A stretch of DNA of 64,000 nucleotides from Lysinibacillus sp. 2017 (GTDB lineage: Bacteria; Bacillota; Bacilli; Bacillales_A; Planococcaceae): NCBI RefSeq assembly GCF_003073375.1, contig NZ_CP029002.1:2466001-2530000 (forward strand). Direction: 5' to 3'. Each line of letters begins with the position of its first letter. The first letter of the stretch is position 1. A program made the position numbers and the translations under genes. Below are positions 1 through 56,211 of this stretch, piece by piece. Below the pieces are notes generated by a model. It worked only from the letters and a program-made list of their open reading frames with translations. It ran no database searches and had not been told where the DNA came from.

Positions 1-791
1 AGCCCAATCCCGCATCTTTTAATCACACGTGTCAATTGTCTACTACTAAGCGGGGCGTCTGTTGCTAATACAATAATAATTGACCCATCTGTAGGCGCAA
101 TGGTAGAATTCGCCTGCTGTTTCGTAGTTGTATAACGCTCTTTCATAAATTCATTACTTGAACCAAAATTCGATAACACGAGACAACCAAGCATATACGT
201 TTGATCCGTGTCCGCTACTTCTACGATTCTAGAAGCACTTCCAATTCCCCCTTTGTAGCCAAAGCACATCATTCCTTTACCTGCACCAACCGCGCCTTCT
301 TCAGCCACTGAATTCGTCGCATTTTCAATGGATTCCTTTGCATGCTCTGGTAAAACGGGACAATGACGAATTGAATTTAAATGACCATCATTACATTCCC
401 CGACGACGATATTTATTGTCCCTGTTAAAATGCCAATCTCTTCATTTTGTTCAAGTAAGTATTCTAATGTCCCTTGTGTAACGGCTGGTATTCCGAATGT
501 ATTCGTCAACATAATCGGTGATTCGATAACACCTAGCTCATTCACTTGTACAAGACCTGTCGATTTCCCAAACCCATTTAACACATAACTTGCGGCTGTT
601 ACCTTTTGCTGAAATAGATTTCCGCCATGCGGTAAAATGGCCGTCACACCTGTACAAGCCTTTTCCCCTTGTTCATTTAAAGGACTATCAAGCGTAACAT
701 GTCCCACTTTCACACCCACAACATCAGTTATGCAATTTTTTTTACCTGGCTGTAATTGGCCAATTAGTATACCTCGTTCACGAATTTTCAT
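1..791 (-). CDS. P1 family peptidase (DmpA-type), C-terminus cut by window edge
   Basis: About 263 N-terminal residues are visible, starting at the ATG whose complement is 789-791; the rest lies outside the window. The protein matches the P1 (S58, DmpA/BapA) family of Ntn-type aminopeptidases, which activate by self-cleavage before a Ser nucleophile. Visible family marks are an N-terminal ITDVVGVKVGH stretch, a glycine-rich GAVGAGKG segment near residue 170 and KGGIGSASR near 180-188, where S185 is the probable nucleophile and new N-terminus. No signal peptide is seen, so it is probably cytoplasmic. The substrate cannot be told from sequence. Confidence 0.85.
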   Translation of the reverse strand, partial: MKIRERGILIGQLQPGKKNCITDVVGVKVGHVTLDSPLNEQGEKACTGVTAILPHGGNLFQQKVTAASYVLNGFGKSTGLVQVNELGVIESPIMLTNTFGIPAVTQGTLEYLLEQNEEIGILTGTINIVVGECNDGHLNSIRHCPVLPEHAKESIENATNSVAEEGAVGAGKGMMCFGYKGGIGSASRIVEVADTDQTYMLGCLVLSNFGSSNEFMKERYTTTKQQANSTIAPTDGSIIIVLATDAPLSSRQLTRVIKRCGIG

Positions 792-850
792 GTTTTATTC
801 CTCTCTATAAACCATTTTCTGCATTTATCCTACCGTAACTTGAGAAAACA

Positions 851-891
851 AAAAAGGAAAACTTTTGACAATCGCATCAAAGGCTTTCCTT
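851..891 (-). terminator. intrinsic terminator of the 42-residue ORF
   Basis: On the minus strand an imperfect stem (AAGGAAAGCCTTTGA with its partner) is followed by a T run. It lies between the small ORF at 958-1086 and the peptidase gene. It supports transcription of the small ORF. Confidence 0.6.
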
Positions 892-957
892 ACATATCAT
901 GAAATGGTTTCTTGCTTGCGAAAAACATCACCTTATTATAAAAAATAACAATCATAA

Positions 958-1086
958 CTAAATTTCTAAAATTCCTCTTTCCCAACGGTCTACGAAGACT
1001 TCAAAAGTTATTCCATATCGGTTATATACTTCATGATAAACAAAATAAATTCCGAGTCGATCTAACAATTCGTCATTAATTTTCAT
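958..1086 (-). CDS. small hypothetical protein, 42 residues
   Basis: ATG start with GGAAGAGGG about 8 bases upstream, followed by 42 codons and TAG. The product is charged and aromatic (begins MKINDELLDRLG, ends VDRWERGILEI), has no membrane segment or signal peptide, and I do not recognise it. A good intrinsic terminator follows at 851-891. A TATAAT hexamer preceded by TG lies about 100 bases upstream. The ribosome site plus terminator make it a likely real gene, but the function is unknown. Confidence 0.5.
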   Translation of the reverse strand: MKINDELLDRLGIYFVYHEVYNRYGITFEVFVDRWERGILEI

Positions 1087-1338
1087 TGTATCTACCCTCT
1101 TCCATTTCAAATTCTTAATGATATTTTTCACCATTTCTCACTGATACATTGTTACTTATTACATGCCCATATTTGCAAATTATTATACACTTTGTTATTT
1201 CAATGATAATTTTTAATCATTTTGAAAGCCTAGAAAGTGCTGTTACAAAGTTTTCACATTCAATGAATATTTCGGCATGTTTAAGCAAGGACATTTTAGT
1301 AAGATAGAAGTAATGACAACATCATCGGAGGAACTGTA

Positions 1339-1827
1339 ATGAAAAAATTAATTCCACTTTTACTATTTGCATCGATACTTACAGGTTGTGGAGATACTTA
1401 CAGCGAAATTAAAGAGGCGGTTTCTGGTATAGGCTCAAAGGCGAATGATGCAGCAGCAGCCATTTCAGTTGAGGTACATACGCTTCGGGCGGTTGAACTA
1501 CAATACAACAACGAAACTTTTACAATTAACGACCTTTTTAAAACTACTTTACGTGATGTTCAATGGCTTTATGATGAAAAAAAACAATATTTAAAAATCA
1601 CTGGTACCTGGAAAGACAATGAACTTTTTGCTGATCAACAATATAATGACACGAAAAAAGCGCAATTACGCGAAAACGGCGATGTCGAAGTGCATTTATT
1701 TTTTGATAATGAAACATTAATTGAAGAAAAGACAACCGTTACCATGCAGCTTCAATCGGAAACATTAATTGATGAGACAGGAACAGATGCTTTAGATCAT
1801 TTTTACAAAGTATACGCAGCACAATAA
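1339..1827 (+). CDS. putative lipoprotein, 162 residues
   Basis: The N-terminus (MKKLIPLLLFASILTGCGD) is a lipoprotein signal peptide with lipobox LTGC, so Cys17 should be lipidated and the protein held on the outer face of the membrane. The mature part is soluble, acidic and rich in beta-type sequence (repeated TVTMQLQ-like strands). No enzymatic motif is seen. The start follows GGAGG with 7 bases spacing. It is transcribed opposite to its neighbours and has no obvious partner. Function unknown. Confidence 0.75.
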   Translation: MKKLIPLLLFASILTGCGDTYSEIKEAVSGIGSKANDAAAAISVEVHTLRAVELQYNNETFTINDLFKTTLRDVQWLYDEKKQYLKITGTWKDNELFADQQYNDTKKAQLRENGDVEVHLFFDNETLIEEKTTVTMQLQSETLIDETGTDALDHFYKVYAAQ

Positions 1828-1875
1828 TAGGAAGACGTCATAGAAATTTTACTCAATAAATAAAGTTCGTATTAG

Positions 1876-2022
1876 AGAAACACACGATTATGGCTTGCAG
1901 AATATGCACGATTTCATACAACAATACCAATGTTGCAACATTCCCCAAAACCAGTTCAAACCATTGCTACGCCTGAAATTTATCAAATGTGTAAAAAAAT
2001 TGTGTATAAAGAATTCACCGCT
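1876..2022 (+). pseudogene. truncated reading frame beside the array end
   Basis: An open frame with protein-like composition (includes LWLAEYARFHTTIPM and VQTIATPEIYQMCKK) starts just after a stop at 1873-1875. It has no start codon or ribosome site before the internal ATG at 1930. It runs directly into the hairpin at 2025-2064. It looks like the 3' part of a gene that lost its 5' end, perhaps when the neighbouring array formed. The family is not recognised. Confidence 0.25.
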
Positions 2023-2024
2023 AA

Positions 2025-2119
2025 AAAACCCACAAACGTTGATTGGACATCGTTTGTGGGTTTTCGGGACGTGACCAAACTTGCGTTTGGAAACGTTTAT
2101 TCAGTTTGTTTTGTATACG
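2025..2119. repeat. junction site S1 with adjoining perfect hairpin
   Basis: A 14-bp perfect stem (CGTTTGTGGGTTTT, 2025-2038 with 2051-2064) precedes the half-site GACCAAAC-TTGC-GTTTGGAAACGTTT at 2073-2096. The tail GTTTGTTTTGTATACG at 2104-2119 is repeated almost exactly in S4 (4998-5013). This marks the left end of the array, downstream of gene A. Confidence 0.6.
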
Positions 2120-2166
2120 TTATTAGTTCTTGTTGTACTAAATTCCTTAGTGAAATAAAAACTCCA

Positions 2167-2628
2167 TTACCAATCTGGTCCATCATTTCTATCTACGACT
2201 TTAAGATTAAATGATTTGGAGTCTAGACTAACATTTTCAACTGTTTCAAAGAAAATTGATTTTACTTCTTTCTGTATGGATTCAGTCGCATCTTTTTCTA
2301 AAATATATTTCACCCGTATATCATCATTTGAATAAACTGCAAGCATCATTTGAAAAGAATAACCGTTATTTTTTAATTTGTTATTTACCTGTTCAAATAA
2401 GCCTCCCTTTTGATAAAGTAGGGTTGTAATTTCTTCTGATTCTTTTATTTTCTTTTCATTTTCAGCATTTAATTCAGGACTTATTGAAGGTGGAGATTCA
2501 GGTATTTCCCCTTTAGTTGAGATGTTATAGATAAATAGAAAAGCTAAAACAAATAAAATCACAATGGTTCCAATTAAAGTGATTTTGCCCTTTTTTATTC
2601 TGTACACTTCCTTTTTTACTTTAAACAT
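2167..2628 (-). CDS. small membrane-anchored hypothetical protein (cassette A)
   Basis: 153 residues: a short basic N-terminus, one membrane helix at about residues 17-36 (ITLIGTIVILFVLAFLFIY), then a hydrophilic, mostly charged domain probably outside the cell. The ATG at 2628 has no clear ribosome site. TATACAAT sits 6 bases upstream, so the start may be wrong or the message leaderless; GTG at codon 8 is an alternative. The helix (KITLIGTIVIL) resembles that of the protein at 7333-7545 (RLSLTGAIVIL) in the same array. Family not recognised. Confidence 0.6.
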   Translation of the reverse strand: MFKVKKEVYRIKKGKITLIGTIVILFVLAFLFIYNISTKGEIPESPPSISPELNAENEKKIKESEEITTLLYQKGGLFEQVNNKLKNNGYSFQMMLAVYSNDDIRVKYILEKDATESIQKEVKSIFFETVENVSLDSKSFNLKVVDRNDGPDW

Positions 2629-2672
2629 ATGATTGTATAAAAGGTTTTAAACTATCCGTTCGTTGAAGAAAA

Positions 2673-2724
2673 ACCTTCCCAAAGCGTGTTTAGGAAGGTC
2701 AGCAGGTAAAGGGAACGTTATTGA
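2673..2724. repeat. junction site S2
   Basis: Left part is the palindrome ACCTTCCCAAA-GCGTG-TTTAGGAAGGT (2673-2699). Right part AAAGGGAACGTTATTGA (2708-2724) matches the right arms of S3-S7. It lies between genes A and B. Confidence 0.65.
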
Positions 2725-2762
2725 GATTTGAAATTTATATCGTATTCATAAAGTATCAATTA

Positions 2763-3194
2763 TTATTCCTCAGGTTCACTAAAAGGATATATATACATAT
2801 CAATATCAATAAATGCATTGATAGCGGAAGCAAATCTACTAAATTGAGGAGAAATTACCAAACCTGGTGTATAACCATCTATCATTGTTATCACTAATTC
2901 AATTTGTACATTCAAATTCAATTCTTCTTTTAAACGGTTAATTGAATCTGCTTTGTCTTGAAAAAAATTTAAAATGGGTAGTAAAACATCATCTACATCA
3001 AGTGTTTCCAATGTTTCAGATTCGTATTGCCAGGATGTAAATGAACGTGTATGTACATCATTTATTCTTTCACCCATTCGCAAAATTGTTGTGGGCTGTA
3101 CACCTAACATCTCTGTTACTACTTCGACAGGAAAATCGTCAACATCATCCTTACCAGTAAAACTAATGTATGCATATAAACTTGTTTTCTCCAT
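2763..3194 (-). CDS. DUF4279 domain protein (cassette B)
   Basis: 143 residues from the ATG at 3194, chosen because GGAGG lies 9 bases upstream; the longer open frame to 3284 has no ribosome site. The sequence matches the DUF4279 family: AYISFTGKDD near the start, a central LGVQPTTILRMGE and the SWQYES block. Members occur singly in accessory regions and some sit beside polymorphic toxins as immunity proteins, but no toxin is adjacent here. Soluble, acidic, no signal peptide. A TATAAT at 3231-3236 is a probable promoter inside the unit. Confidence 0.75.
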   Translation of the reverse strand: MEKTSLYAYISFTGKDDVDDFPVEVVTEMLGVQPTTILRMGERINDVHTRSFTSWQYESETLETLDVDDVLLPILNFFQDKADSINRLKEELNLNVQIELVITMIDGYTPGLVISPQFSRFASAINAFIDIDMYIYPFSEPEE

Positions 3195-3257
3195 ACAGCC
3201 AGCCCTCCAAAGGTTTTTTATACAAGTGATTATAACGTTAAAATTTACTGGATAAAA

Positions 3258-3379
3258 GTTACAAAAGCGCTGTTTGGGAGCCAAATTTAAAAGCAGCTAA
3301 GACAAGAAGTTGTCCTAGCTGCTCGATTGAACGTTCATAATGGCTTATTTGGGAACGTTATTTTGAATGGGATTGTATA
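3258..3379. repeat. junction site S3 with central terminator-like hairpin
   Basis: Left arm ACAAAAGCGCTGTTTGGGAG (3261-3280), central stem AGCAGCTAAGACAA/TTGTCCTAGCTGCT (3292-3323), right arm TTTGGGAACGTTATTTT (3348-3364) and tail GGGATTGTATA (3369-3379). On the minus strand the central stem is followed by TTTT, so it can end transcription of gene C. Confidence 0.65.
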
Positions 3380-3455
3380 ATTGTTTTACATCACCAAAAA
3401 TAGCAACCCAAACCATTTAAAATAACAATATGCAAAATCTATACCTGAAATTATG

Positions 3456-4718
3456 TTAAGATTGATCTCTTAAATAGTTTAAAAAACCTTCCGTAATTTT
3501 GTTATATTTACTCTCTACATTTCTTTCATCTACTGTCACCATTTTTCGATCTTTCATAACCCATTTACCTTCAACCATTACATGTTGGATGGAATCCTCT
3601 TTACTATAAAATAATAAGTTGTGAAGATAATTAGAAAAATCCTCGTTATTAATCAATGGTTCTAAATCCAAATTTTTCTTAATAAAAACTAAGTCTGCTT
3701 TATAACCTGCTTTTATTTGTCCGATACTTTCGTGTAAACCATATGCTTTAGCTCCATTTATAGTCGCCATTTTAAAAATATCCTCTGAAGAATATTTTTG
3801 AACAGGACTAGTGGTTTTCAATAAATAGTAAGTCAATCGCATTAACTCCCACATGTTCGTATGAACGTAATCCGTTCCTAAAGAAACGTTGACTCCATTT
3901 TCAAGCATATAATTAACATCTGCGACACCTGCACCTGTATCTAAGTTAGAGAGTGGACAATGAACGATAGAGCTATTATGTTTGGCCACTAACTCTATAT
4001 CATGCTTCGACATAAAAACTCCGTGAAAGAGAACGGTTTTATCATCTAGTAAATCTAGTTCATTGTAAATTTCGATACTCGATTTTCCAAATTTAGAGTT
4101 AACGATGTTATATCTCCATTCATTCTCTAAACAATGTGTCATCATGATAGAGTTATAGTTGTTTTTGATTTCTTTTAATTTATTTAAATCCGTTTCAGTG
4201 AAATCTTCTTCCTCTAATAAATGCGTACCAAATAAAACCGTTCCTTCTGATTTATGATAATAATCGCCAATTTCTCCATATGTATCAATGATTGCGCGTA
4301 TTCCAAGCTCTTTTATTGCGTCAGCTAGTAATTGTGGTGTTTGTGGATCAGAATCACTTACAAACGTTACCCCATTTTTAACCATATCAATATAGCTCTT
4401 TTGCGCAACATACACAAAATCCTCTTCTGAAATTTCATTGTCGATATAATCAAAAAATAGTTTTTGTATTTTTCCTTGCTTCGTATTGTTGCTCCAATCC
4501 TCAATGGATGTTTCCTTCATCAATCCTTTAGTTAAGGGCGAATAACTATGGAAATGAGCATTAATCAATCCAGGGATTACAAAATAATGCGAGCAATCGA
4601 TTGTTCCTTCATCGTTTACATCATGAAAATCGAAATGAATTTCACCATCTATAATTTCAATATTTTGTGTTTCAAATTTCATATCCTGATTTAGATATGT
4701 TACATTTTTTAATTTCAT
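3456..4718 (-). CDS. amidohydrolase, MTA/SAH- or cytosine-deaminase-like (cassette C)
   Basis: 420 residues, cytoplasmic metal-dependent hydrolase of the amidohydrolase superfamily. Visible ligands are the HFHSYSPLTKG strand-1 motif (HxH, near residue 57), THCLENEW, FHGVF, HCPLSNLDTG and the terminal aspartate in LGTDYVHTNMWE. The layout matches the SsnA/MtaD/chlorohydrolase group that deaminates aminated purine or triazine rings. The usual GTDGAASNN is replaced by GTDYVHTNM, so the substrate is uncertain. Start supported by AAAGGGG 6 bases upstream and an extended -10 box at 4757-4765. It is the largest cargo gene of the array. Confidence 0.8.
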   Translation of the reverse strand: MKLKNVTYLNQDMKFETQNIEIIDGEIHFDFHDVNDEGTIDCSHYFVIPGLINAHFHSYSPLTKGLMKETSIEDWSNNTKQGKIQKLFFDYIDNEISEEDFVYVAQKSYIDMVKNGVTFVSDSDPQTPQLLADAIKELGIRAIIDTYGEIGDYYHKSEGTVLFGTHLLEEEDFTETDLNKLKEIKNNYNSIMMTHCLENEWRYNIVNSKFGKSSIEIYNELDLLDDKTVLFHGVFMSKHDIELVAKHNSSIVHCPLSNLDTGAGVADVNYMLENGVNVSLGTDYVHTNMWELMRLTYYLLKTTSPVQKYSSEDIFKMATINGAKAYGLHESIGQIKAGYKADLVFIKKNLDLEPLINNEDFSNYLHNLLFYSKEDSIQHVMVEGKWVMKDRKMVTVDERNVESKYNKITEGFLNYLRDQS

Positions 4719-4756
4719 ATAAATCCCCTTTAGAAAATTCGAAATTTTAAAATTTA

Positions 4757-4765
4757 ATTATAACA
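4757..4765 (-). promoter_or_regulatory. extended -10 promoter formed at the edge of a junction site
   Basis: On the minus strand the bases read TGTTATAAT, a perfect extended -10 box, 38 bases before the ATG of gene C. The TGTT is the outer end of the S4 left arm, so the site and unit together make the promoter. No good -35 is seen, as is usual for extended -10 promoters. Confidence 0.5.
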
Positions 4766-4792
4766 TTCCCAAAGCGCTGTTTGGTAACATTT
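4762..4792. repeat. junction site S4, left arm
   Basis: AACATTCCCAAAGCG followed by CTGTTTGGTAACATTT. It matches 28 of 30 bases of the S6 left arm at 6127-6156. The rest of S4 is the long repeat at 4838-5013. Confidence 0.65.
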
Positions 4793-4837
4793 CATGCCAT
4801 TCAGAACAAGTGGATTGAACAGTCCTCTTTAAAATAG

Positions 4838-5013
4838 TTTCTCACAGCGTCTCAGAGCGTTATTTTCTATAATAACAGCGACAAACACTGTGAAATCAGT
4901 GTTTGTCGCTGTTTGAAATATTCCCAAGCTTGAAGTGACCCCTAAAAGTTAGACACGGTTATTGGTTACCTAACTTGCATTTGGGAACGTTATTTACGTT
5001 TGTTTTGTATACG
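4838..5013. repeat. long junction repeat, copy 1 (right part of S4)
   Basis: Matches 6539-6712 with no gaps over at least 150 bases. In order: CTCACAGCGTCTCAGAGCG; a 16-bp perfect stem (4875-4890 with 4897-4912) with loop TGAAAT; a stretch ACCCCTAAAAGTTAGACAC like the end of IS3-family elements; then half-site GGTTACCTAACTTGCA-TTTGGGAACGTTATTT and the tail GTTTGTTTTGTATACG. The stem probably acts as a terminator. Between here and the next gene there is only a 23-codon ORF. Confidence 0.7.
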
Positions 5014-5111
5014 CTATAAATCTTTTAAAAATTAAAGTAATCTTGTATTTTAGTAAAATAAAGACACTTCTTCAGCCAACCCGATTGTGACAAAAAAATT
5101 TGCTATTTGTT

Positions 5112-5183
5112 CTAGCCAACTCTAGAAGTAATAGTAGCAGACAAAAGAGTAATTAATAAAGTAAGTGAAAAACGAGAAAACAT
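5112..5183 (-). CDS. possible 23-residue peptide after cassette D gene
   Basis: ATG at 5183 with AAGAGGT 8 bases upstream (overlapping the stop of the previous gene), 23 codons, TAG. The product MFSRFSLTLLITLLSATITS plus VG looks like a bare signal peptide or membrane peptide. It could be a translated leader, the stub of a broken secreted protein, or chance. Confidence 0.3.
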   Translation of the reverse strand: MFSRFSLTLLITLLSATITSRVG

Positions 5184-5188
5184 TTATT

Positions 5189-5455
5189 TTACCTCTTTGA
5201 AATAGCTCCAATAAAAGTACCTATCCATACTCCTACAAAAATAGTAATCGTGAAGTAAGCCAAAAAGATACCGTCCCAACCACCAACTACATCTTTGCTA
5301 AAAATAATTAATCCAATACAAATTAGACTTAATACAGTGGCAGTTAAAATTAAAGCTTTTCTTGAAACCTTACGGGATATAATATACATCCCAATTGCAA
5401 ACATAATTCCGCAAAGTAATATAGGAGTCCATCCCTCTAACATCAAAGCATCCAT
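5189..5455 (-). CDS. small multi-pass membrane protein (cassette D)
   Basis: 88 residues from the ATG at 5455, chosen for GGAGG 7 bases upstream. Three predicted membrane helices: GWTPILLCGIMFAIGMYII, a second beginning ALILTATVLSLICIGLIIF, and a third FLAYFTITIFVGVWIGTFIG. A basic loop (SRKVSRK) follows helix 1. No known family. An upstream TGCTATATAAT near 5540 is a probable extended -10 promoter. One of five multi-pass or single-pass small membrane proteins in the array. Confidence 0.6.
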   Translation of the reverse strand: MDALMLEGWTPILLCGIMFAIGMYIISRKVSRKALILTATVLSLICIGLIIFSKDVVGGWDGIFLAYFTITIFVGVWIGTFIGAISKR

Positions 5456-5622
5456 TTGATTACCTCCTGTTATGTTTTTCCGTAAACTGAGCAAATTTCT
5501 AGAGTTATTTATTATTTATATTACTAACTACGATAAATTATATAGCATAAAATTTCCAATTTGTGGACTTATCATTCATAAGAGGCAAAATCCCCTCATT
5601 CAATTAAAAAAAGGGGGGGAAT

Positions 5623-5672
5623 TGGTCCCCAAAGTTTCATTTGGGAACGTTTATTGAATTTATAATGTATAT
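5623..5672. repeat. junction site S5 (short form)
   Basis: GGTCCCCAAA-GTTTCA-TTTGGGAACG (5624-5649) with tail TTTATTGAATTTATAATGTATA. It is the compact version of the junction, an inverted repeat with a 6-base centre. It lies between genes D and E. Confidence 0.65.
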
Positions 5673-5779
5673 AGTATTTATTGTTCAAAAATAGATATTA
5701 CAGTAATCCTTAAGACAATTAATACAAAACTACTTGTTTTTTAAAGTACATTTGATGCCAACAGTTATCCAAAGCAATT

Positions 5780-5995
5780 CTAAAAACACCTAACAACAAG
5801 AGATATACTCACTATCCCCCAAGCAAAAGTACCACATATCCACCAAATTACAGATTTAGCTTTTGATAAATTTTCCTCTGATTCCGGATTTGCTTTTATA
5901 AAAGCGACTTTACTCTCCATACTTTTTTTCATAGAGAAGATAACAACAAATCCAATTATTATGAAACCGATAGTTATCCAAAGTAATAGGTCCAC
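5780..5995 (-). CDS. small two-helix membrane protein (cassette E)
   Basis: 71 residues from a GTG at 5995, chosen because AAAGGGGG lies 7 bases upstream; the longer frame to 6043 lacks a ribosome site. Two membrane helices (LLLWITIGFIIIGFVVIFSM and SVIWWICGTFAWGIVSISLVV) are joined by a charged loop containing KANPESEENLSKAKS. No family recognised. It lies between S5 and the left arm of S6, like a one-gene cassette. Confidence 0.6.
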   Translation of the reverse strand: MDLLLWITIGFIIIGFVVIFSMKKSMESKVAFIKANPESEENLSKAKSVIWWICGTFAWGIVSISLVVRCF

Positions 5996-6126
5996 TTTTA
6001 CACCCCCTTTATATAATTGAATTTTACCGCTATTTAAAAACAAACCTTGTGTTAATTCAGATTCGTTTTAGTATATAAAATACCCTGTGAAAATAATAAT
6101 TAATACGTATTAGAATGCTGAAAATT

Positions 6127-6156
6127 AACATTCCCAAAGCGAGGTTTGGTAACATT
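6127..6156. repeat. junction site S6, left arm
   Basis: AACATTCCCAAAGCG then AGGTTTGGTAACATT, nearly identical to the S4 left arm. In S4 the long repeat follows after 45 bases; here it follows after about 380 bases that hold a plus-strand gene. Confidence 0.65.
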
Positions 6157-6276
6157 CTTAAACGAATTATTTTTTAACACTGTCACCAATGAGAATAAAA
6201 TGGATAAATATGTATCCATTAGAGATTACCTTCGTCTATATCCGAAGGTAGCGTAAATATAATTAGAGGTGATATT

Positions 6277-6573
6277 TTGAAAAAAGTGATAATCGTTCTA
6301 AGTAGTACAGTATTTATAATTGTAGCTGCGTATTTATTAATGCCTAACATTATGATGAACAGCGTAAAAGATAAAATTATAGAAAATAATCCCGACATTG
6401 AAAATATTGTCACGATAAATCATATAAGTTCGTGGGGAGAATGGTTTTTAGAATACGTATTGGTAGTTGAAATTGGTGGACAAAAATTTCGAATTTGGTC
6501 AAATGACAAAGGCGAAATAACAGATAAAGAAGCTTTAATTTCTCACAGCGTCTCAGAGCGTTATTCTCTATAA
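6277..6573 (+). CDS. small membrane-anchored protein, opposite strand, C-terminus formed by repeat (F)
   Basis: 98 residues from a TTG start with AGAGGTGA 6 bases upstream. One N-terminal helix (VIIVLSSTVFIIVAAYLLM) and a soluble domain ending NDKGEITDKEALISHSVSERYSL. It is the only plus-strand gene of the array. Its last 12 codons lie inside the long repeat that starts at 6539, so the original C-terminus has probably been replaced. Flanked by the S6 left arm and the repeat. Function unknown. Confidence 0.55.
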   Translation: MKKVIIVLSSTVFIIVAAYLLMPNIMMNSVKDKIIENNPDIENIVTINHISSWGEWFLEYVLVVEIGGQKFRIWSNDKGEITDKEALISHSVSERYSL

Positions 6574-6712
6574 AAACAGCAACAAACACTGATTTCACAG
6601 TGCTTGTCGCTGTTTGAAATGTTACCAAGCTTGAAGTGCCCCCTAAAAGTTAGACACGGTTATTGGTTACCTAACTTTCATTTGGGAACGCTATTTATAT
6701 TTAGTCTGTATG
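6539..6712. repeat. long junction repeat, copy 2 (right part of S6)
   Basis: Gap-free match to 4838-4997 and weaker after it. The central stem is kept (6576-6591 with 6598-6613, two G-T type mismatches) but the six-base loop reads ATTTCA, the exact reverse complement of TGAAAT in copy 1. Half-site GGTTACCTAACTTTCA-TTTGGGAACGCTATTT ends the copy and overlaps the stop codon of gene G. Confidence 0.7.
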
Positions 6713-6914
6713 TTTTATAAATAAACAATGACCACAAAATTACTAAAAATAAAATATATTGTGTTGTAATTGTTCCAAAATCTGTATTTAAAAAGATAGC
6801 AATTATAAACAGTGAGGAAAAGAAGATTGGAATAAATAAAAGAATTTTTTTAGACTTAGTGCTAATTTGTATAATTATCGCCAAAACAATTACTGTCAAA
6901 GATAAAAGAGTCAT
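6678..6914 (-). CDS. small membrane protein (cassette G)
   Basis: 78 residues, ATG with AGGAGG 8 bases upstream. Two or three membrane helices cover most of the chain (LLSLTVIVLAIIIQIST, ILLFIPIFFSSLFIIAIF, ITTQYILFLVILWSLFIY). The last codons and TGA stop are encoded by the GTTCCCAAATGA of the junction site, so the site supplies the C-terminus SVPK. An extended -10 TGCTATAAT lies about 40 bases before the start. No family recognised. Confidence 0.6.
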   Translation of the reverse strand: MTLLSLTVIVLAIIIQISTKSKKILLFIPIFFSSLFIIAIFLNTDFGTITTQYILFLVILWSLFIYKTYRLNINSVPK

Positions 6915-6974
6915 TAATTAAAACCTCCTATTTTTTGTAAATCATAATATTGATTATAGCATTAAACCTAAAAA

Positions 6975-7020
6975 AAACGTCCCCAAAGCAGGATTCATTT
7001 GGGAACGTTTATTGAATTTA
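6975..7020. repeat. junction site S7 (compact, best palindrome)
   Basis: AAACGTCCCCAAA (6975-6987) and TTTGGGAACGTTT (6998-7010) are inverted repeats matching at 12 of 13 bases around a 10-base centre. The tail ATTGAATTTA matches S5. This is the clearest complete site. Confidence 0.7.
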
Positions 7021-7024
7021 TCAT

Positions 7025-7207
7025 TCAACTAAAAGGTGTTAAAGCGATACTCCAGACAATTAAAACAAAAGATGCTGTTAACCAGAACGTATTAGTGGAA
7101 GTAGGCTGTTCTTTTTTTATTTTTTTAATTATTTCTACAAGGTTGATACAAAATATAATAGCTAAAATTGGCATTACGTATACACTTATAAATGCAAATA
7201 CTATCAT
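7025..7207 (-). CDS. small two-helix membrane protein (cassette H)
   Basis: 60 residues, ATG with GGGGAG 10 bases upstream. Two helices (VFAFISVYVMPILAIIFCINL and FWLTASFVLIVWSIALTPF) separated by the charged loop EIIKKIKKEQPTS. A TGGTATATT box lies about 30 bases upstream as a possible extended -10 promoter. The stop is 5 bases from the S7 tail. No family recognised. Confidence 0.55.
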   Translation of the reverse strand: MIVFAFISVYVMPILAIIFCINLVEIIKKIKKEQPTSTNTFWLTASFVLIVWSIALTPFS

Positions 7208-7255
7208 ACGTAAACACTCCCCTCAGAAATAATATACCATTTTTTTACACAAAGA

Positions 7256-7284
7256 ACCTTCCCAAAGCGGTGTTGGGGAATATT
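7256..7284. repeat. junction site S8
   Basis: ACCTTCCCAAAGCGG then TGTTGGGGAATATT. Left arm equals that of S2; the right arm is diverged (TTGGGGAATATT). It lies between genes H and I. Confidence 0.55.
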
Positions 7285-7332
7285 TAAAGGAGTGCTTGTT
7301 ACACTAAGCGCATAGTTCAATAAGAAAAGCGA

Positions 7333-7545
7333 TTACCGTTCTTCATTATCTCCTTGAAATGTTTTTATTAGTTCTTCAAAATTCTCATTAAATCTGTTTA
7401 TTTCATATCCATAAGTTCCATTGTCGACATTAACCCTTGATGAATCTCTTATAGCGTTTGAAATAATAAAAGCAGAAAATAATATGCAAATGCTTAAAAT
7501 AACTATTGCACCAGTTAAAGATAATCTCGGCTTTTTCTCACCCAA
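7333..7545 (-). CDS. small single-helix membrane protein (cassette I)
   Basis: 70 residues from a TTG at 7545, chosen for GGGGGAG 6 bases upstream; the open frame to 7650 overlaps the next gene and has no ribosome site. Basic N-terminus GEKKPRLS, one helix (LTGAIVILSICILFSAFII), then a soluble tail rich in Asn, Glu and Asp. The helix resembles that of the protein at 2167-2628. No junction site separates it from the GNAT gene upstream (33-base gap). Function unknown. Confidence 0.5.
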   Translation of the reverse strand: MGEKKPRLSLTGAIVILSICILFSAFIISNAIRDSSRVNVDNGTYGYEINRFNENFEELIKTFQGDNEER

Positions 7546-7577
7546 AATAACTCCCCCATTTTTAAGAAGATTAATCT

Positions 7578-8438
7578 TCACATAGTCTCTACATAATAAG
7601 AATTCCAGCTTTTTTTCTTTTCTAATTGTAGTAATGCTGCAAATTGCCATGACATGTGGTTAGTTGTGTCGATTTCAAATTCGACTGTTTTGACACCTTG
7701 GCGTTGTAATTGGATAAGCTGTTGCTTCAAAATGGGCAGAAGGTTTGTGTGATTATTCATGCCAACCCACCCTATTTCGTAATGGTCTGGTGATATTGGA
7801 TGAAGAAAAATATAGGCCATTACGTTATTTTCTTCAACTGTTACAAAGCTTAAATTAAAGTCTGGTGTATCGTCTAATAAAATTTCCTTCCAAGTTTGCC
7901 AAGTAACGTCTTTTGCAGGATTATCTAAATGGGTTTGCTCATAGTTGTATTTTAGTAGTTTAAAAAGATTCTGTTCTAAAGTAGGCTCATTTAATATTTC
8001 GAGTAATGGGATGAGTGTTTGTGTTGATTGTTCTTGTTCTAACCGTTTTAATAATGAGCTTATTTCGTAAGTTTCAATGTATGTTTTACGGAACAGTTTG
8101 AATTGAAATTGTTTCAACAACTGTATTTTTTCTAATTCATGGTCCCAGCAGGATAAAATGATTTTATCGTGCGTATCAGTGGCGGCAAGTAAGTGGTTCA
8201 TCAGTTCAAAAGATGAGTCGTTAGCTAAGACATCAATATATTTTGCATAAGGATGAAAAGGGCTTGACCAGCTAATGCCAATTCCTTTTATAGTCTCCGC
8301 TGAAATTTGGGCAAATAGTTCGGAAAACTTTTTAGATTGAATACGCCATTCTAAGTCGATTAATTTTTGCTCGAGCGCGTAGTCTAATTTAAAGCCATTT
8401 ATGTTATCGATTTTTTTGATTGTTAGATTTTTATTCAT
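7578..8438 (-). CDS. GNAT-family acetyltransferase-like protein (cassette J)
   Basis: 286 residues from the ATG at 8438, chosen for CGGAGAACC 4-8 bases upstream. The C-terminal half (from about residue 160) has the order of a GNAT fold: a helical lead, strand LSFVTVEENNVMAYIFLHPI, YEIGWVGMNN for the strand-4/acetyl-CoA region and a final strand VEFEIDTTN. The N-terminal half resembles a second, degenerate GNAT domain. Substrate unknown. GNAT genes are frequent cassette cargo in integrons. Directly upstream lies site S9. Confidence 0.65.
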   Translation of the reverse strand: MNKNLTIKKIDNINGFKLDYALEQKLIDLEWRIQSKKFSELFAQISAETIKGIGISWSSPFHPYAKYIDVLANDSSFELMNHLLAATDTHDKIILSCWDHELEKIQLLKQFQFKLFRKTYIETYEISSLLKRLEQEQSTQTLIPLLEILNEPTLEQNLFKLLKYNYEQTHLDNPAKDVTWQTWKEILLDDTPDFNLSFVTVEENNVMAYIFLHPISPDHYEIGWVGMNNHTNLLPILKQQLIQLQRQGVKTVEFEIDTTNHMSWQFAALLQLEKKKSWNSYYVETM

Positions 8439-8482
8439 GGTGGTTCTCCGTTCAAGATTTGTATTCAATTGAATAAGGGGTA

Positions 8483-8532
8483 TTGGTTCCCTAAGTATCA
8501 TTGGAAACGTTTTTTTGTATGGTATTGTATAA
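8483..8532. repeat. junction site S9
   Basis: TTGGTTCCCTAAG-TATC-ATTGGAAACGTTTTTTT with tail GTATGGTATTGTATAA. The same form as S5 and the right half of S4/S6. It lies between the Nudix and GNAT genes. Confidence 0.6.
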
Positions 8533-8539
8533 GATAATT

Positions 8540-9031
8540 CTAACGAACTCGATAAACCTCATTTAGATTTAGTTTATGCTCTTCTATTAAATCAATGTTT
8601 CTAGGATTTTGCGTATATTCTTGTAAATAAGGTCCGATGTTTGCGTACATTTCAATATTTTGTAACTCTAAAATAGGAACCCATCTAACATCTATTTGAT
8701 TTGAATCTGGGTTTTCTGGGAATTTTGGTGTACTAGGGCTTTTTATTTTGCATTCAAACATCATAACCAATGTATGTATGTTCCCAAACTTTTCAAAATT
8801 AAGATGAGGTGTGTATTCATAAACAAAAGCCAGAGGACCTACTTCTACATCTATACACGTCTCTTCTTTAGCTTCTCTTTTAACTGTATCTGTAATTGAT
8901 TCATTGGGTTCCGCTCCACCAGCAGGTAAATCGTAAACGATACCTCTTATTGGGTCGTTATACACCGTTAATAATATTTCATTATTTTCTATGATTATTG
9001 CACCAGCCCGTACTCTAATATGAGAAGACAT
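8540..9031 (-). CDS. Nudix hydrolase (cassette K)
   Basis: 163 residues, ATG with AGGAGG 7 bases upstream. A Nudix hydrolase cuts nucleoside diphosphate-linked compounds with a divalent metal. The Nudix box is at about residues 38-60: GGAEPNE...REAKEETCI fits Gx5Ex7REUxEExGU except that the late glycine is Cys. The catalytic glutamates are kept. Start and end lie close to S10 and S9, so it forms a one-gene unit. Substrate cannot be told; Nudix genes are common cassette cargo. Confidence 0.85.
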   Translation of the reverse strand: MSSHIRVRAGAIIIENNEILLTVYNDPIRGIVYDLPAGGAEPNESITDTVKREAKEETCIDVEVGPLAFVYEYTPHLNFEKFGNIHTLVMMFECKIKSPSTPKFPENPDSNQIDVRWVPILELQNIEMYANIGPYLQEYTQNPRNIDLIEEHKLNLNEVYRVR

Positions 9032-9092
9032 TTAAAAACCTCCTAAGTTGATATATTAAGGTTTCTAGAAGATGCTATTGAATTCCTTTAAA

Positions 9093-9154
9093 AATTTCCA
9101 AATCGATGTTGGGAAGTTATTATATATTAATAGTTCATCTTAAAATATTGTATA
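9093..9154. repeat. junction site S10, right end of array
   Basis: ATTTCCAAATCGATGTTGGGAAGTT, a diverged palindrome, with ATTGTATA at 9147-9154 as the tail. No further site was found to the right. The stretch 9155-9332 holds no gene or other feature that I can see. Confidence 0.5.
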
Positions 9155-9332
9155 GCTACGAATATGGAACTTATCTCCATTTGTATTATAGTAATTAAAT
9201 TCTACAAATATAACGAGAAATCTTCTATAAATTCCTGTAACAATAGACGAATTACATCATGATGTAATTGATTATTTCAATGGCATTAATTTCAAAGTTT
9301 TATCAAATATTCAATTTAATAACTAACAATAG

Positions 9333-9357
9333 GTTTTATTTTTTTAATAGAGGGAAG
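9333..9357 (+). promoter_or_regulatory. probable SigB promoter of csbD
   Basis: GTTTTA (9333-9338), 13 bases, GGGAAG (9352-9357) fits the general-stress sigma-B consensus GTTTAA-N12-15-GGGTAT. It is 34 bases before the ATG. csbD is a known SigB target in Bacillus subtilis, which supports the reading. Confidence 0.55.
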
Positions 9358-9391
9358 ATAGATATTGTATAAAACTTAAGGAGGTCATACA

Positions 9392-9592
9392 ATGTCGAGT
9401 GGATTTTCTGATAAATTAAAAAGTACAGGTAATAAAATTAAAGGGGAAGTAAAAGAAACGGTTGGGGAAAAAACAAATGACCCAAAATTACAAGCTGAAG
9501 GAAAATTAGATCAGTTAAAAGGGGAAGCACAAGAAAAAATTGCTGATGTAAAAGAAGCGATTTCAGACAAATTCAACAATGGATCAAAATAG
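9392..9592 (+). CDS. csbD: CsbD family stress protein
   Basis: 66 residues, ATG after AAGGAGG with 9 bases spacing. The sequence is the CsbD pattern: KSTGNKIKGEVKETVGEKT, then LQAEGKLDQLKGEAQEKI. It is small, highly charged and hydrophilic, probably partly unfolded, and cytoplasmic. CsbD proteins are induced by general stress under SigB; the biochemical role is unknown. A probable SigB promoter precedes it and a strong terminator follows, so it is a single-gene unit. Confidence 0.85.
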   Translation: MSSGFSDKLKSTGNKIKGEVKETVGEKTNDPKLQAEGKLDQLKGEAQEKIADVKEAISDKFNNGSK

Positions 9593-9598
9593 TCTAAA

Positions 9599-9631
9599 AA
9601 ACTAGCATCCAAGTGGTTGCTAGTCTTTTTA
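9599..9631 (+). terminator. terminator of csbD
   Basis: ACTAGCATCCA-AG-TGGTTGCTAGT stem followed by CTTTTT, 7 bases after the csbD stop. Confidence 0.85.
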
Positions 9632-9782
9632 TGCACTAAAATAAGAACTAAGGATTATATTAAAATAGGCATTAAAACATATAATTTTAAATTTTTCTAA
9701 CATTTAATTAATTTATATTTCATTTTATAGGAATTTTGATATACTTTAAATTATTAACCATACCTAATAAGGGGGAGATATT

Positions 9783-11957
9783 ATGAAACTCGATCAATTA
9801 ATACCCCTATCAAAAGACAGATTATTTATTTGGCTAAAAACCTTAAGTAACCAGCTTTCGAAAGGCACTGTAATCATTGATTTCCATGATTCAAATCTTT
9901 CTATTGTTCATGCCAACGAAGAATTTCTTCAATTAACAAATTACTCAATCGAGCAACTCATTGGACAAAATTTTTCAATCTTTAATGGTCATCGTACAGA
10001 TACAGAAACTGCAAATGAATTTATATATCACATTCAAAATGGTGTGTCACGGAAATTTACAATTTTAAATTATACATTGGGTGGCTCTACATTTTGGAAT
10101 AATATTACGATTCATCCGATTCGAGACGAAAATCAAAAAATACAATATATTTTCCTAACGTGTGAAGACTACACAGAGAACGAGTTAAATAAAATGCTTT
10201 CTAAACTTGAGCATGAAGTATACGAAGCAATTGATGCCGATGACGATTTACAATTCATTTTGACATTAATTACAAAAAAAATTGAGAATCACTATATCCG
10301 CGATGTATATTGTACGATTCATCTGTTTGACGAACAGCTAAAAGCGCAAACAATTGGTTCCAATACATTGCCAATCGAAATTATCAATGAACTTGAGCTA
10401 ATAAAAGTTACGCCAAATATGGGCTTTAATGAATCAGCCATCTATTTAAAAGATATCAAACTAACACAACAACAACGACAATCATTTTACAATTTCCAAT
10501 TAAACGATGTCTGTGGTACTTGGTCAAAACCGATTTTAACACCACAATATGACTTATTAGGGATGTTGACATTATTTCATCAAGAAGATAACGAATTAAA
10601 ACAAGCAGATATCAACTATTTAAATCGACTTGCACTTTTAATTCAGCTTGCTATAAAGTATGCGAAACAGAAAAATGAGCTTCGACGTTTAGCTTTTTAT
10701 GATGTCGAAACAACCCTTCCAAATACGCATTATTTTAAAACAACTCTTTTTGATTGGATAGACGAAGGAAAAAAAGGTTTTGTCGCTATCCTACACGCAA
10801 GAGAGTATAACAAAATAATCGATTTATATGGAAGGAAAGCTGGGGCCGATTTATTAAAACAAATTGCGGACCGATTAGATCAACTAAATACACCAGGAAA
10901 AGAGTTTGTAGCCCGCTTCTCTAATTCAATTATTATGGCAAAAATAAACAATTATACAAATTTATTAAATTACCTACCCGTTCTCAAACAATTAATAACC
11001 GAGCCTTACCTCATCAACGGAGAAAAAAATTATATTACATTGAAAATTGGTGTTACCTTTTTCGATAAACAATCTACAATCGACCAATGTATTCACAAAG
11101 CAGACATTGCATTATCAACGTCACGTAAAGTAAACGGTACTTATGCAGCTGTTTTTGAGGAAAATAGTAATCAAAAATTAGCGGAAGAAATGAAAATTTT
11201 TAACCATTTAAGTTGTGGGATTTTAAACGAAGAATTCCAAGTTCATTTACAGCCGAAAGTAAATATTGAAACACTTGAAATTGAAGGTTTTGAAGGTCTC
11301 TCTCGTTGGAATTCAAAAGTTCTCGGCAATGTATCACCCGCAAAATTCATTCCCATAGCAGAACAATCAGGAAAAATTAAAGAAATCGATTTATTAAATT
11401 TCAAATTTGTTTTAACATGGCTTCAAAATCGGATCAATGATAACAAAAAAGTATTACCGATTGCACTAAATGTATCGCCCGATCATTTTTATGATCCTAA
11501 ATTTATTGAAAATATCGTAAACGTGTTTTCACAATTTGAAGTTCCTGCTAAGTATATTAAATTTGAAGTAACAGAAAGTATTGAATTAGATGATTTAACA
11601 AAAGCGAAGGAAATTTTAAATACGCTAAATACTATGGGAATTGAAAGTTCGATTGACGACTTTGGTGTTGGTTATTCATCCCTTAGTTATCTACCACAAC
11701 TGCCATTTTCAGAATTAAAAATTGATCGTAGCTTTATCAACGAAATAACTGAACCTGGTATGCATGCAGTCGTACAAACGATCATCCAGCTTGCAAACAA
11801 TATTAATATGCGTGTAATTGCAGAAGGTATTGAAACAGAAGAGCAACTTAAACTGCTCCAACAATTAGGCTGTCCAGCAGGGCAAGGTTATTATTTCTAC
11901 AAGCCAATGCCGATTGAAGAAGCGGAAAAATTACTTGATATTGAACAAAAGCGCTAA
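9783..11957 (+). CDS. PAS-GAF-GGDEF-EAL protein, probable c-di-GMP phosphodiesterase
   Basis: 724 residues, no membrane helix. Order: PAS (about 30-140), GAF (140-290), GGDEF (300-450), EAL (470-720). The GGDEF signature is replaced by FSNSI (in ARFSNSII), so cyclase activity is unlikely. The EAL domain keeps metal and catalytic residues: E of EGL (EAL variant), NVSPDHF, EVTESIE, IDDFGVGYSSL, LKIDRSFI, AEGIETEEQ and the late QGYYFYKP. It therefore probably degrades c-di-GMP in response to PAS/GAF input. A paralogue of the same layout lies at 32210-34396. ATG after GGGGGAG. Confidence 0.85.
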   Translation: MKLDQLIPLSKDRLFIWLKTLSNQLSKGTVIIDFHDSNLSIVHANEEFLQLTNYSIEQLIGQNFSIFNGHRTDTETANEFIYHIQNGVSRKFTILNYTLGGSTFWNNITIHPIRDENQKIQYIFLTCEDYTENELNKMLSKLEHEVYEAIDADDDLQFILTLITKKIENHYIRDVYCTIHLFDEQLKAQTIGSNTLPIEIINELELIKVTPNMGFNESAIYLKDIKLTQQQRQSFYNFQLNDVCGTWSKPILTPQYDLLGMLTLFHQEDNELKQADINYLNRLALLIQLAIKYAKQKNELRRLAFYDVETTLPNTHYFKTTLFDWIDEGKKGFVAILHAREYNKIIDLYGRKAGADLLKQIADRLDQLNTPGKEFVARFSNSIIMAKINNYTNLLNYLPVLKQLITEPYLINGEKNYITLKIGVTFFDKQSTIDQCIHKADIALSTSRKVNGTYAAVFEENSNQKLAEEMKIFNHLSCGILNEEFQVHLQPKVNIETLEIEGFEGLSRWNSKVLGNVSPAKFIPIAEQSGKIKEIDLLNFKFVLTWLQNRINDNKKVLPIALNVSPDHFYDPKFIENIVNVFSQFEVPAKYIKFEVTESIELDDLTKAKEILNTLNTMGIESSIDDFGVGYSSLSYLPQLPFSELKIDRSFINEITEPGMHAVVQTIIQLANNINMRVIAEGIETEEQLKLLQQLGCPAGQGYYFYKPMPIEEAEKLLDIEQKR

Positions 11958-11997
11958 AACGCCCTTATGTACGGTGATTTAGCACTTTCTTACTAAA

Positions 11998-12038
11998 ATA
12001 AAAGCGGATGCCCGATTCATTTCAGGCATCCGCTTTTT
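11998..12038. terminator. bidirectional terminator
   Basis: AAAGCGGATGCC and GGCATCCGCTTT form a 12-bp stem with T runs on both strands. It separates the convergent EAL gene and esterase-like gene. Confidence 0.85.
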
Positions 12039-23446: not shown

Positions 23447-24055
23447 ATGGCTTGGGATGTATTTAGCGTCATTGGCACCATTGCCTTCGCCATTTCTGGC
23501 GCAATCGTTGCAATGGAGGAAGAATACGATTTATTTGGAGTCTATATTTTAGGCATTGTAACAGCGTTTGGTGGAGGCGCAATTCGAAATTTATTGATTG
23601 GTTTACCGGTTTCAACATTGTGGAGTCAAGAAATGATGTTTCAAATTGCGTTAGCGGCGATTACAATTTTCTTTTTAATGCCGCATCATTTAATAAAGCA
23701 TTGGAATCGTTGGGGGAACTTTACCGATGCAATTGGATTGTCGGCATTTGCCATTCAAGGGGCCATGCATGCGGTGCATTTACAATTACCAGTTGCAGCT
23801 GTCATTGTCGCGGCTGTTTTAACAGGGGCTGGTGGAGGAATTGTTCGTGATTTACTCGCAGGAAGAAAGCCAATTGTCCTTAGACATGAAATTTATGGCG
23901 TTTGGGCTGCAATTGCTGGTCTATTAATTGGTCTTGAATTATTTTCTGGAGATTTCTTCTTATATACGCTGTTTGTGATTATTACGATTTTACGCGTATT
24001 TTCCTATACACGCGGTTGGTGCCTACCCGCAAAAAAAATTCAATTTGCAAAATAA
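23447..24055 (+). CDS. TRIC-type cation channel family protein (UPF0126)
   Basis: 202 residues from the second ATG (23447), 6 bases after AGGGGG. Membrane protein with seven predicted helices made of two repeated halves. Each half carries a glycine-rich kink: AFGGGAIRNLLIGLP and TGAGGGIVRDLLAG. Bacterial TRIC homologues form trimeric monovalent-cation channels. The physiological role here is inference. It is divergent from ynbB and followed by the structured repeat at 24057. Confidence 0.88.
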   Translation: MAWDVFSVIGTIAFAISGAIVAMEEEYDLFGVYILGIVTAFGGGAIRNLLIGLPVSTLWSQEMMFQIALAAITIFFLMPHHLIKHWNRWGNFTDAIGLSAFAIQGAMHAVHLQLPVAAVIVAAVLTGAGGGIVRDLLAGRKPIVLRHEIYGVWAAIAGLLIGLELFSGDFFLYTLFVIITILRVFSYTRGWCLPAKKIQFAK

Positions 24056-24056
24056 A

Positions 24057-24233
24057 GAACAAAAGCGCTAAAGCGTCCGTTTAGCCCCGAACAGCTTTGG
24101 CGGACCCGACAAGAAAGTAAACGTTCTTAGGAGGGGTCGAAAAGCTCGCGGGGCTAGCGCTTTAGCCTCGACGTGAGATATGCTTTATTTAAAAGTTATC
24201 CACAATACGAGGATTTATAATTTCCTTAACAAA
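24057..24233. repeat. dispersed structured repeat, copy 1
   Basis: Matches 55981-56168 except a 12-base gap. It holds nested stems (GCTAAAGCG/CGCTTTAGC outside TAGCCCCG/CGGGGCTA) and ends with AAAAGTTATCCACAATACGA, including TTATCCACA (24196-24204), a consensus DnaA box. The 16-base head GAACAAAAGCGCTAAA also occurs at 11943-11958. Confidence 0.8.
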
Positions 24234-24235
24234 GA

Positions 24236-24266
24236 AAAAGCACAAGAGTTTAAAACTCCTGTGCTT
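24236..24266 (-). terminator. terminator of the rhodanese gene
   Basis: Minus strand AAGCACAGGAGTTT...ACTCTTGTGCTT followed by TTTCTTT. Confidence 0.8.
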
Positions 24267-55862: not shown

Positions 55863-55980
55863 TTCATCTCCCCCTATGCATGCATCCATTTTAGCATTTC
55901 AAAAACATATTTTGCACTTCAATCGCGCAAAATGATATTTTTTCCTATACAAATTTCTTCAAAGACCTATTTTTCTCCAA

Positions 55981-56168
55981 GAACAAAAGCGCTAAAGCGT
56001 CCGTTTAGCCCCGAACAGCTTTGGAGGACCCGACAAGAAAGTAAACGTTCCATCACTTTCGTAGGAGGGGTCGAAAAGCTCGAGGGGCTGGCGCTTTAGC
56101 CTAGACGTGAGATATGCTTTATTTAAAAGTTATCCACAATACGATGGATTTATAATTTCCTTAACAAA
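55981..56168. repeat. dispersed structured repeat, copy 2
   Basis: About 90 percent identical to 24057-24233, same orientation, with a 12-base insertion near 56050. It keeps both nested stems (with compensating and wobble changes) and the DnaA-box sequence TTATCCACA (56130-56138). It lies between yrrS and greA. Confidence 0.8.
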
Positions 56169-56171
56169 AAT

Positions 56172-56211
56172 AAAAGCAGTTAGCATCATTCGCTAACTGC
56201 TTGTTATTTTT
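56172..56211 (-). terminator. terminator of greA
   Basis: AAGCAGTTAGC-GAATGAT-GCTAACTGCTT on the minus strand followed by TTATTTTT. Confidence 0.9.

Follow-up and report, generated by a model that had tools for sequence, protein, structure and literature searches.

Candidate integron-like cassette arrays bounded by two classes of 28-bp sites in the Solibacillus-Lysinibacillus group

An array of small gene units between near-palindromic sites

We analyzed a 64,000-nucleotide stretch of the chromosome of Lysinibacillus sp. 2017 (genome G000 in our set, treated here as a Solibacillus; contig NZ_CP029002.1, positions 2,466,001 to 2,530,000), here called the window. Positions 2025 to 9154 hold an array of small units, mostly with one minus-strand gene each, that lie between ten related palindromic junctions. 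An initial annotation, made from the DNA letters alone, had pointed to these ten junctions, and we recovered them with models of two site classes, A and B. The array looks like part of an integron-like gene-capture system in a group, the Firmicutes, in which integrons are described as very rare (PMC9024848).

A weight matrix derived from the repeats defines the basic junction element as a site of 28 bp, near-palindromic, in which two 11-bp arms flank a 6-bp spacer. Class A, with the consensus AACGTTCCCAAATgAAAgTTtGGgaAC, lies 3' of a gene's stop codon and mostly has the spacer TGAAAG, TCAAAG, or TAAAAG, while class B, with the consensus AAtgTtcCCAAACgaCGcTTTGGGaAc, lies 5' of a gene and mostly has the spacer CGACGC. 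The two classes are mutually inverted, with a terminator-bearing spacer module between them, and the order along the gene direction is B, gene, A, short terminator-hairpin spacer, B, gene, A; where B sites are worn or absent, A can follow A. The recurring, related junctions of the initial annotation are real, but many of them are A-spacer-B pairs and not single sites, and the terminator hairpins belong to the spacer.

In 38 loci (18 from this genome and 20 from nine congeners), we found 192 sites of at least 13 bits in 591,621 bases, while one shuffle gave 2. With 49 A and 59 B sites from other species as the training set, models called 9 to 10 positions at 2000-9200, 1 in the remaining window, and 0 in 20 shuffles, a test that is not fully independent, since this genome had contributed to the models used for choosing the training sites. 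Across 17 loci of G000, an open reading frame (ORF) of at least 45 amino acids (aa) (median, 139 aa) precedes 36 of the 46 A sites, with a median distance of 49 nt between its end and the site, and orientation within arrays is largely uniform. TATAAT-like hexamers behind B are not enriched (49 of 95 sites, versus 57 in shuffles). The gene-side flank of A has a common AT-rich motif, atttataa..tATacAaaa..aa...AAatAACG (96 sites in 37 loci), which may perhaps be an accessory binding stretch.

In the window, all sites have the same orientation except one near-palindromic B site, and features are on the minus strand unless noted. At its 3' end, the array has a terminal element (1843..2069), a terminator hairpin followed by an inverted repeat of the TTTATACACAATTTT ... 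ATGAAATCGTGCATA type that is common to other array ends in the genome; positions 1843 to 2101 are 87% identical to L051:5177-5437. It adjoins the array-end A site (2070..2097; 33.0 bits). Beyond this site lie a cassette gene of 153 aa with no family found (2167..2628; 2147-2652 is 89% identical to G015), a degenerate B site (2674..2701; 14.3 bits), a degenerate A site at about 2704 to 2725, seen by eye, and a DUF4279 cassette gene (2763..3194; PF14106, E = 2.4e-28). Position 2711 is a unit breakpoint relative to both G010 and G009, and the DUF4279 unit is 91% identical to the former (2711-3265) and 89% identical to the latter (2711-3262). The near-palindromic B site at 3255..3282 (21.9 bits) was called on the plus strand. 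It is followed by an A site (3332..3359; 21.3 bits), a 420-aa amidohydrolase gene (3456..4718; PF01979, E = 3.3e-48), a B site (4764..4791; 39.1 bits), and a spacer module with a terminator-like hairpin (4792..4963) whose family is common to several arrays. Positions 4762 to 4995 are 95% identical to G000:2207411-2207644, and pieces of them match many further places. At 4931-4962 and in like spacers, a short stretch, TGAAGTGACCCCTAAAAGTTAGACA, resembles IS3-type insertion sequence (IS) ends, which may hint at the insertion of minimal units into A sites.

The central part of the array consists of an A site (4964..4991; 43.3 bits), a gene for a YesK-like membrane protein (5189..5494; PF14150, E = 2.6e-10; 4972-5531 is 91% identical to G013), an A site (5624..5651; 44.6 bits), a cassette gene with an 87-aa membrane-type ORF (5780..6043; 5737-6160 is 90% identical to G004), and a B site (6129..6156; 39.0 bits). 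Between this B site and the A site at 6665..6692 (40.1 bits), a 98-aa ORF runs in reverse orientation on the plus strand (6277..6573); this one unit (6157-6664) differs from the minus-strand single-gene organization given for most units in the initial annotation. Positions 6536 to 6722 are an 87% copy of 4835-5021. The ORF list places membrane-type cassette genes of 78 aa (6678..6914) and 60 aa (7025..7207) on either side of a compact fused A/B site (~6970..7012; 9.3 bits), and, past a B site (7257..7284; 34.6 bits), an ORF of 105 aa (7333..7650). An ORF of up to 307 aa (7578..8501), which had been supposed to encode a GNAT protein, has no Pfam match at E ≤ 0.01. The 5' end of the array comprises an A site placed by eye, which lacks one base relative to the model (~8485..8513), a Nudix hydrolase gene (8540..9031; PF00293, E = 1.3e-14), and a weak B site at the start of the array (9093..9120; 11.1 bits). 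The unit shared with G014 (8501-9113; 95% identity) starts at 8501. The Nudix and DUF4279 genes proposed as cargo were found, as were amidohydrolase and YesK genes, while the GNAT assignment was not borne out.

Arrays and array ends across the chromosome

The site arm has 136 matches at ≤3 mismatches in the 3.74-Mb chromosome, compared to 34 for a reversed control, with clusters at ~1.68, 1.84, 2.02, 2.14, 2.21, 2.47 (this window), and 3.06 Mb and single copies elsewhere. The cargo is diverse. Among 43 cassette proteins there are matches to 43 Pfam families, and the 25 families listed include Nudix, GNAT, methyltransferase, signal peptidase, and helix-turn-helix families, with only NUDIX and Acetyltransf_1 recurring in more than one protein among those listed. 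We also considered defense arrays, but the matches to 21 PADLOC families among the 43 cassette proteins are too scattered, as 20 of these families are each represented by a single protein.

All 14 array ends that were chosen and aligned have a terminator hairpin beyond the last A site, and 11 of them also have an inverted repeat about 100 bp apart, as judged by eye. With one terminal element as the query, we found at least 18 genome matches (40 of 54 candidates scored) at 15 places, of which 10 are in loci with an annotated adjacent A site and the remaining 5 each have an A site at the near end. We read the combination of an A site and a terminal element as the likely platform of an array. A replication-coupled orientation was not used as an explanation; the sense strand is the leading strand in 60 of 80 site calls, which is perhaps no more than for genes in general.

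Insertion and exchange of units between species

Comparisons were made across species, with one genome per species. In all 15 other Solibacillus genomes, orthologues of the left-flank genes (a 58-aa ORF and a 162-aa lipoprotein-like ORF) lie ≤1.5 kb from the right-flank EAL gene, and csbD lies between those flanks in 8 of the 15; here, 7.5 kb separates the 162-aa gene (ending at 1827) from csbD (starting at 9392). As the flanking genes lie together in all 15 congeners, the window array is an insertion. Pieces of the array are matched in each of the 15 genomes, at scattered places, and gene units are found singly at other places with their ends in sites; in another array, a 325-bp unit is 95% identical to G004. 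The initial annotation had proposed comparing the presence and absence of whole units bounded at the sites, and these cross-species results, with the whole array absent from the congeners and its units recurring alone, agree with its proposal of a cassette-capture system.

We then located the crossovers with a profile in which identity was averaged over site pairs alike on one side only, pairs that are not independent of each other. Identity switches in the spacer, at site positions 14 to 17, in the 87 A pairs that are alike on the spacer side and in the B pairs of either side (49 and 14 pairs). In these A pairs, identity is 0.49 at position 14 (background, 0.56) and 0.91 at position 15 (background, 0.59). 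Since the switches lie in the spacers of both A and B, gene units and spacer units reassort separately, and switching in a 6-nt spacer is as expected of a tyrosine recombinase. A recombinase-independent way of building arrays, which the initial annotation had kept as an option, is disfavored by the confinement of crossovers to this spacer.

A third Xer-like recombinase as candidate enzyme

The genome encodes a third Xer-like recombinase of 317 aa, here called rec3 (G000:1865943-1866893), which lies 600 kb from the window array, 2 to 3 kb from the chromosome midpoint (1.869 Mb), and ~20 kb from the nearest array. By eye, we recognized the XerC gene beside topA, trmFO, hslU, and codY and the XerD gene beside a phosphopentomutase gene, and the codV-type and deoB-type loci hold genes other than rec3. 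The rec3 protein is 28% identical to XerC and 31% identical to XerD of this genome. Its best models are XerC (224 bits) and XerD (219 bits), below the equivalog cutoffs of 335 and 330 applied to it, and most of its named relatives are annotated as XerC. Residues R169, H261, R264, H287, and Y296 of the catalytic set are present.

Upstream of rec3 in G000 is a palindrome, AACGTTCCCAAATATAAATTTGGGAACGTT, that is a perfect A/B-type site. The form TTCCCAAAT-n4-ATTTGGGA occurs ~60 to 80 nt upstream in 47 of 53 rec3 loci, or in 42 of 48 distinct genomes, as five genomes are in the locus set twice by their coordinates (L065/L123, L060/L124, L076/L127, L078/L145, and L064/L149). The bases flanking the palindrome core differ among genomes, while the palindrome is mostly kept. 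Directly after rec3 is the only exact copy in the genome of TATTATGTAAACT, which we read as the putative XerD half of dif; this placement of dif is tentative, because TATTATGTAAACT at one mismatch has 16 matches versus 25 in the control.

A LexA-box-like sequence, GAACNNNNGTTC, is perfect in 27 of the 53 upstream regions (23 of 48 distinct genomes). The G000 copy (L039:7814-7825) lies ~90 bp above the rec3 -10 element, between divergent genes, and SOS control of rec3 is possible. Another Xer-like protein, of ~299 aa, is encoded 2.3 kb before rec3 (L039:4726-5625; G000 ~1862725-1863624). It lacks most of the catalytic residues, with R changed to K and both H residues and Y lost, and it is present in 22 of 61 relatives, all 22 being among the 26 with rec3; it is possibly an inactive partner or accessory factor.

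Co-occurrence of rec3 and sites

We found rec3 (E ≤ 1e-80) in 94 of 220 sampled genomes of the family, including all 16 of the genus. Matches to the site pattern on both strands average 14.4 in genomes with rec3 (control, 1.3) and 1.0 in those without it (control, 0.8). At least 10 matches are present in 37 of 94 genomes with rec3 and in 1 of 126 without it (P = 4e-15; Mann-Whitney P = 3e-23), both tests being made after subtracting 2 matches for the promoter palindrome and both P values being too small, since the genomes are related and co-occurrence is partly shared descent. The single rec3-negative genome with at least 10 matches, G066, does encode rec3, but in two overlapping frames, next to the palindrome. 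It was one of seven rec3-negative genomes with at least 4 matches that we rechecked; G086 is a 90% complete assembly, and the five others, with 4 to 8 matches, have only distant Xer relatives (best identity, 35 to 37%). Thus, a search for one conserved recombinase gene wherever sites are numerous, as the initial annotation had advised, leads to rec3.

Sites on plasmids

Plasmids with site-bearing stretches include pSSIL1 of Solibacillus silvestris, a Lysinibacillus plasmid, and Listeria plasmids, and there are A sites on Vagococcus and Exiguobacterium plasmids. Plasmid pSSIL1 has eight sites, and in one segment (L192:3664-6406) an ArsR-type regulator gene and a metal P-type ATPase gene lie between a B site at 3664 and an A site at 6379. 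The bcrABC benzalkonium-efflux unit is next to an A site at L193:8073-8100, L194:7161-7188, and L209 to L212 (Listeria, Vagococcus, and Exiguobacterium plasmids). Among the matches listed (50 of 332 records), 26 cover bcrABC, of which 24 begin inside A and 2 carry the context of the query. Six records compared letter by letter have four different left contexts, one of which is a terminal element, and identity stops 17, 25, or 26 nt into the A site region. One context diverges in the spacer and the rest at the far arm, and the spacer is identical in three of the four.

A proposed cassette system

These results are most simply explained by a tyrosine recombinase that works in trans on sites of two spacer classes. 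We think it probable that the arrays form a chromosome- and plasmid-borne cassette system with platforms, run by rec3 as a dedicated Xer-like tyrosine recombinase. From the promoter palindrome and the co-occurrence, we infer that rec3 is the likely enzyme. In this system, rec3 would bind the near-palindromic 28-bp sites and exchange strands within the 6-bp spacer, with A presumably recombining with A and B with B. Such same-class pairing would allow excised circles to re-enter other arrays in an unchanged direction, and gene units and terminator-spacer units would reassort independently. Arrays would grow on platforms, each an A site with the conserved terminal element, at many chromosomal loci and on plasmids, and rec3 would probably repress itself via the promoter palindrome. 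The initial annotation had suggested cassette capture with its own recombinase encoded elsewhere, and the mobile units, the absence of the array from congeners, and the correlation between rec3 and sites support that suggestion.

Several observations, in addition to the common descent already noted, weigh against this account. Many ends among 139 alignments lie away from sites, including those of 7586-8462, which is 88% identical to G013, and of the YesK matches to G008 and G012; these ends may be explained by a shared chromosomal backbone or by sites so worn that they no longer score. Weak evidence comes from the 117 A pairs with gene-side likeness, as the AT-rich flank is common to them and identity does not exceed background at several positions of the arm. 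Six of the 53 rec3 loci are without the upstream palindrome, which could be only an operator, and two of the 94 rec3 copies (G006 and G186) have an internal stop. Nine of the 94 genomes with rec3 have ≤2 matches, a number that the promoter palindrome already accounts for; rec3 can thus be present where arrays are not. Of the plasmids searched, 5 have a rec3-like gene, and none of these is a Listeria, Vagococcus, or Exiguobacterium plasmid with an A site. In addition, the bcrABC unit is not a standard cassette, because A lies behind its genes, which read away from it, and the Listeria unit has no B sites at its right ends.

Other explanations

It is rather improbable that the arrays are dif modules run by the host XerC and XerD, with A and B as stray dif-like sites and rec3 either unrelated or only regulated at a similar palindrome. 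The 28-bp 11-6-11 layout and the alternation of inverted sites with two module types do match those of Acinetobacter dif modules (PMC13141974). Sites are also present on plasmids of genera in which rec3 was not shown. However, site number follows rec3 although XerC and XerD, which are taken as universal, are both in G000; the site arms GTTCCCAAA do not resemble TTATGTAAACT, the putative dif half that adjoins rec3; and the A/B consensus is that of the palindrome found upstream of rec3 in 47 of 53 loci. Alternatively, the junctions could be dispersed repeats or ordinary terminators in arrays that insertion sequences or homologous recombination have mixed, which would fit the terminator-like hairpins and repeat families of the spacers, the IS-like ends seen by eye in some, and the alignment ends away from sites. 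We give this possibility very little credence, as identity switches within a few nucleotides inside the 28-bp site, which is less than homologous recombination generally needs, relatives without rec3 have site matches near the control level, and gene content varies along with the sites.

We regard it as highly unlikely that the system is a true integron, in which A-spacer-B would be an attC-like site, folded as a single strand and used by an integron integrase. The A-spacer-B arrangement does match the R''-L''-loop-L'-R' layout of attC, arrays are largely uniform in orientation, and an SOS-box-like motif lies upstream of rec3. However, the 13 matches in G000 to the integron-integrase model reach at best 91 bits, against a cutoff of 265 bits, with rec3 itself at 88 bits, and model positions 183 to 238 are spanned by only 57 nt in rec3. 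In a search for the A-B arm covariation that a folded strand predicts, the A and B arms of one site paired no better than shuffled partners (26 pairs; P = 0.24 and 0.20), and this folding model is disfavored. Crossovers occur in A as well as B, and positions 1 to 12000 of the window have no Rfam match.

Relation to known systems and significance

The closest known system is that of the Acinetobacter dif (pdif) modules, which are described as 28-bp-type sites with a 6-bp spacer in alternating inversion on Rep_3/OrfX plasmids and as unique to Acinetobacter (PMC13141974). Both systems have two alternating kinds of module that reassort, and resistance genes are among the cargo of both (PMC13141974). 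Unlike dif modules, the Solibacillus system is in Bacillota, on chromosomes as well as plasmids, and not on Acinetobacter Rep_3/OrfX plasmids; its sites are almost symmetric and unlike the putative host dif; its candidate enzyme is a dedicated third Xer-like protein; one-polarity gene units alternate with tiny terminator spacers as the second module; and each chromosome has several arrays with a conserved terminal element. It thus departs from the dif-module family in host and probably in enzyme. Compared to XerC/XerD-dif dimer resolution, rec3 is similar in its best model scores, its place near the chromosome midpoint, and its dif-like neighboring half site, but it is a third copy besides XerC and XerD and has many putative target sites instead of one.

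Like integrons, including sedentary chromosomal integrons, the arrays have mostly single-gene, co-oriented cassettes of mixed function, a tyrosine recombinase as candidate enzyme, and an attC-like two-site layout. The possible SOS control of rec3 is a further likeness, as SOS control of intI has been described (PMC3108266). In contrast to integrons, G000 has no IntI match above the cutoff; there is no cluster of attI, integrase, and array, so that the enzyme would act in trans, although an A/B-type palindrome does precede rec3; and crossovers fall in both simple sites, not in R' alone, with no sign of folded-strand selection. The departures from the integron family are the integrase, the attI cluster, and the single crossover point. 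The label "integron-like" fits the array in function but not in family, given recombination in both A and B and the lack of an integron integrase, and we consider the system integron-like in outcome and dif-module-like in logic. With IntegronFinder 2.0, a single complete integron is reported for the Firmicutes, that of Limnochorda pilosa (PMC9024848). Among the matches listed in our search of open-licence papers, there were no earlier Solibacillus or Lysinibacillus cassette arrays or Bacillota dif modules.

On balance, we lean slightly toward a broader view, in which this is an independently evolved third kind of gene-capture platform: a spare Xer of the Solibacillus-Lysinibacillus group, its palindromic sites spread as two spacer classes through chromosomes and plasmids, would serve dispersed arrays in trans that exchange genes between species and extend to plasmids of Listeria, Vagococcus, and Exiguobacterium, with bcrABC joined at A. 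If true, Gram-positive site-specific cassettes would show how a dimer-resolution-type enzyme can become an engine of gene capture, would partly account for the turnover of genes in this bacterial group, and would provide a mechanism for context change of plasmid genes, including those for metal and disinfectant efflux. One enzyme and two 28-bp sites would suffice for a direct test of the proposed system.

Elsewhere in the window, away from any called A or B site, positions 24055-24242 and 55979-56178 are copies of a 200-bp repeat with 92% identity.

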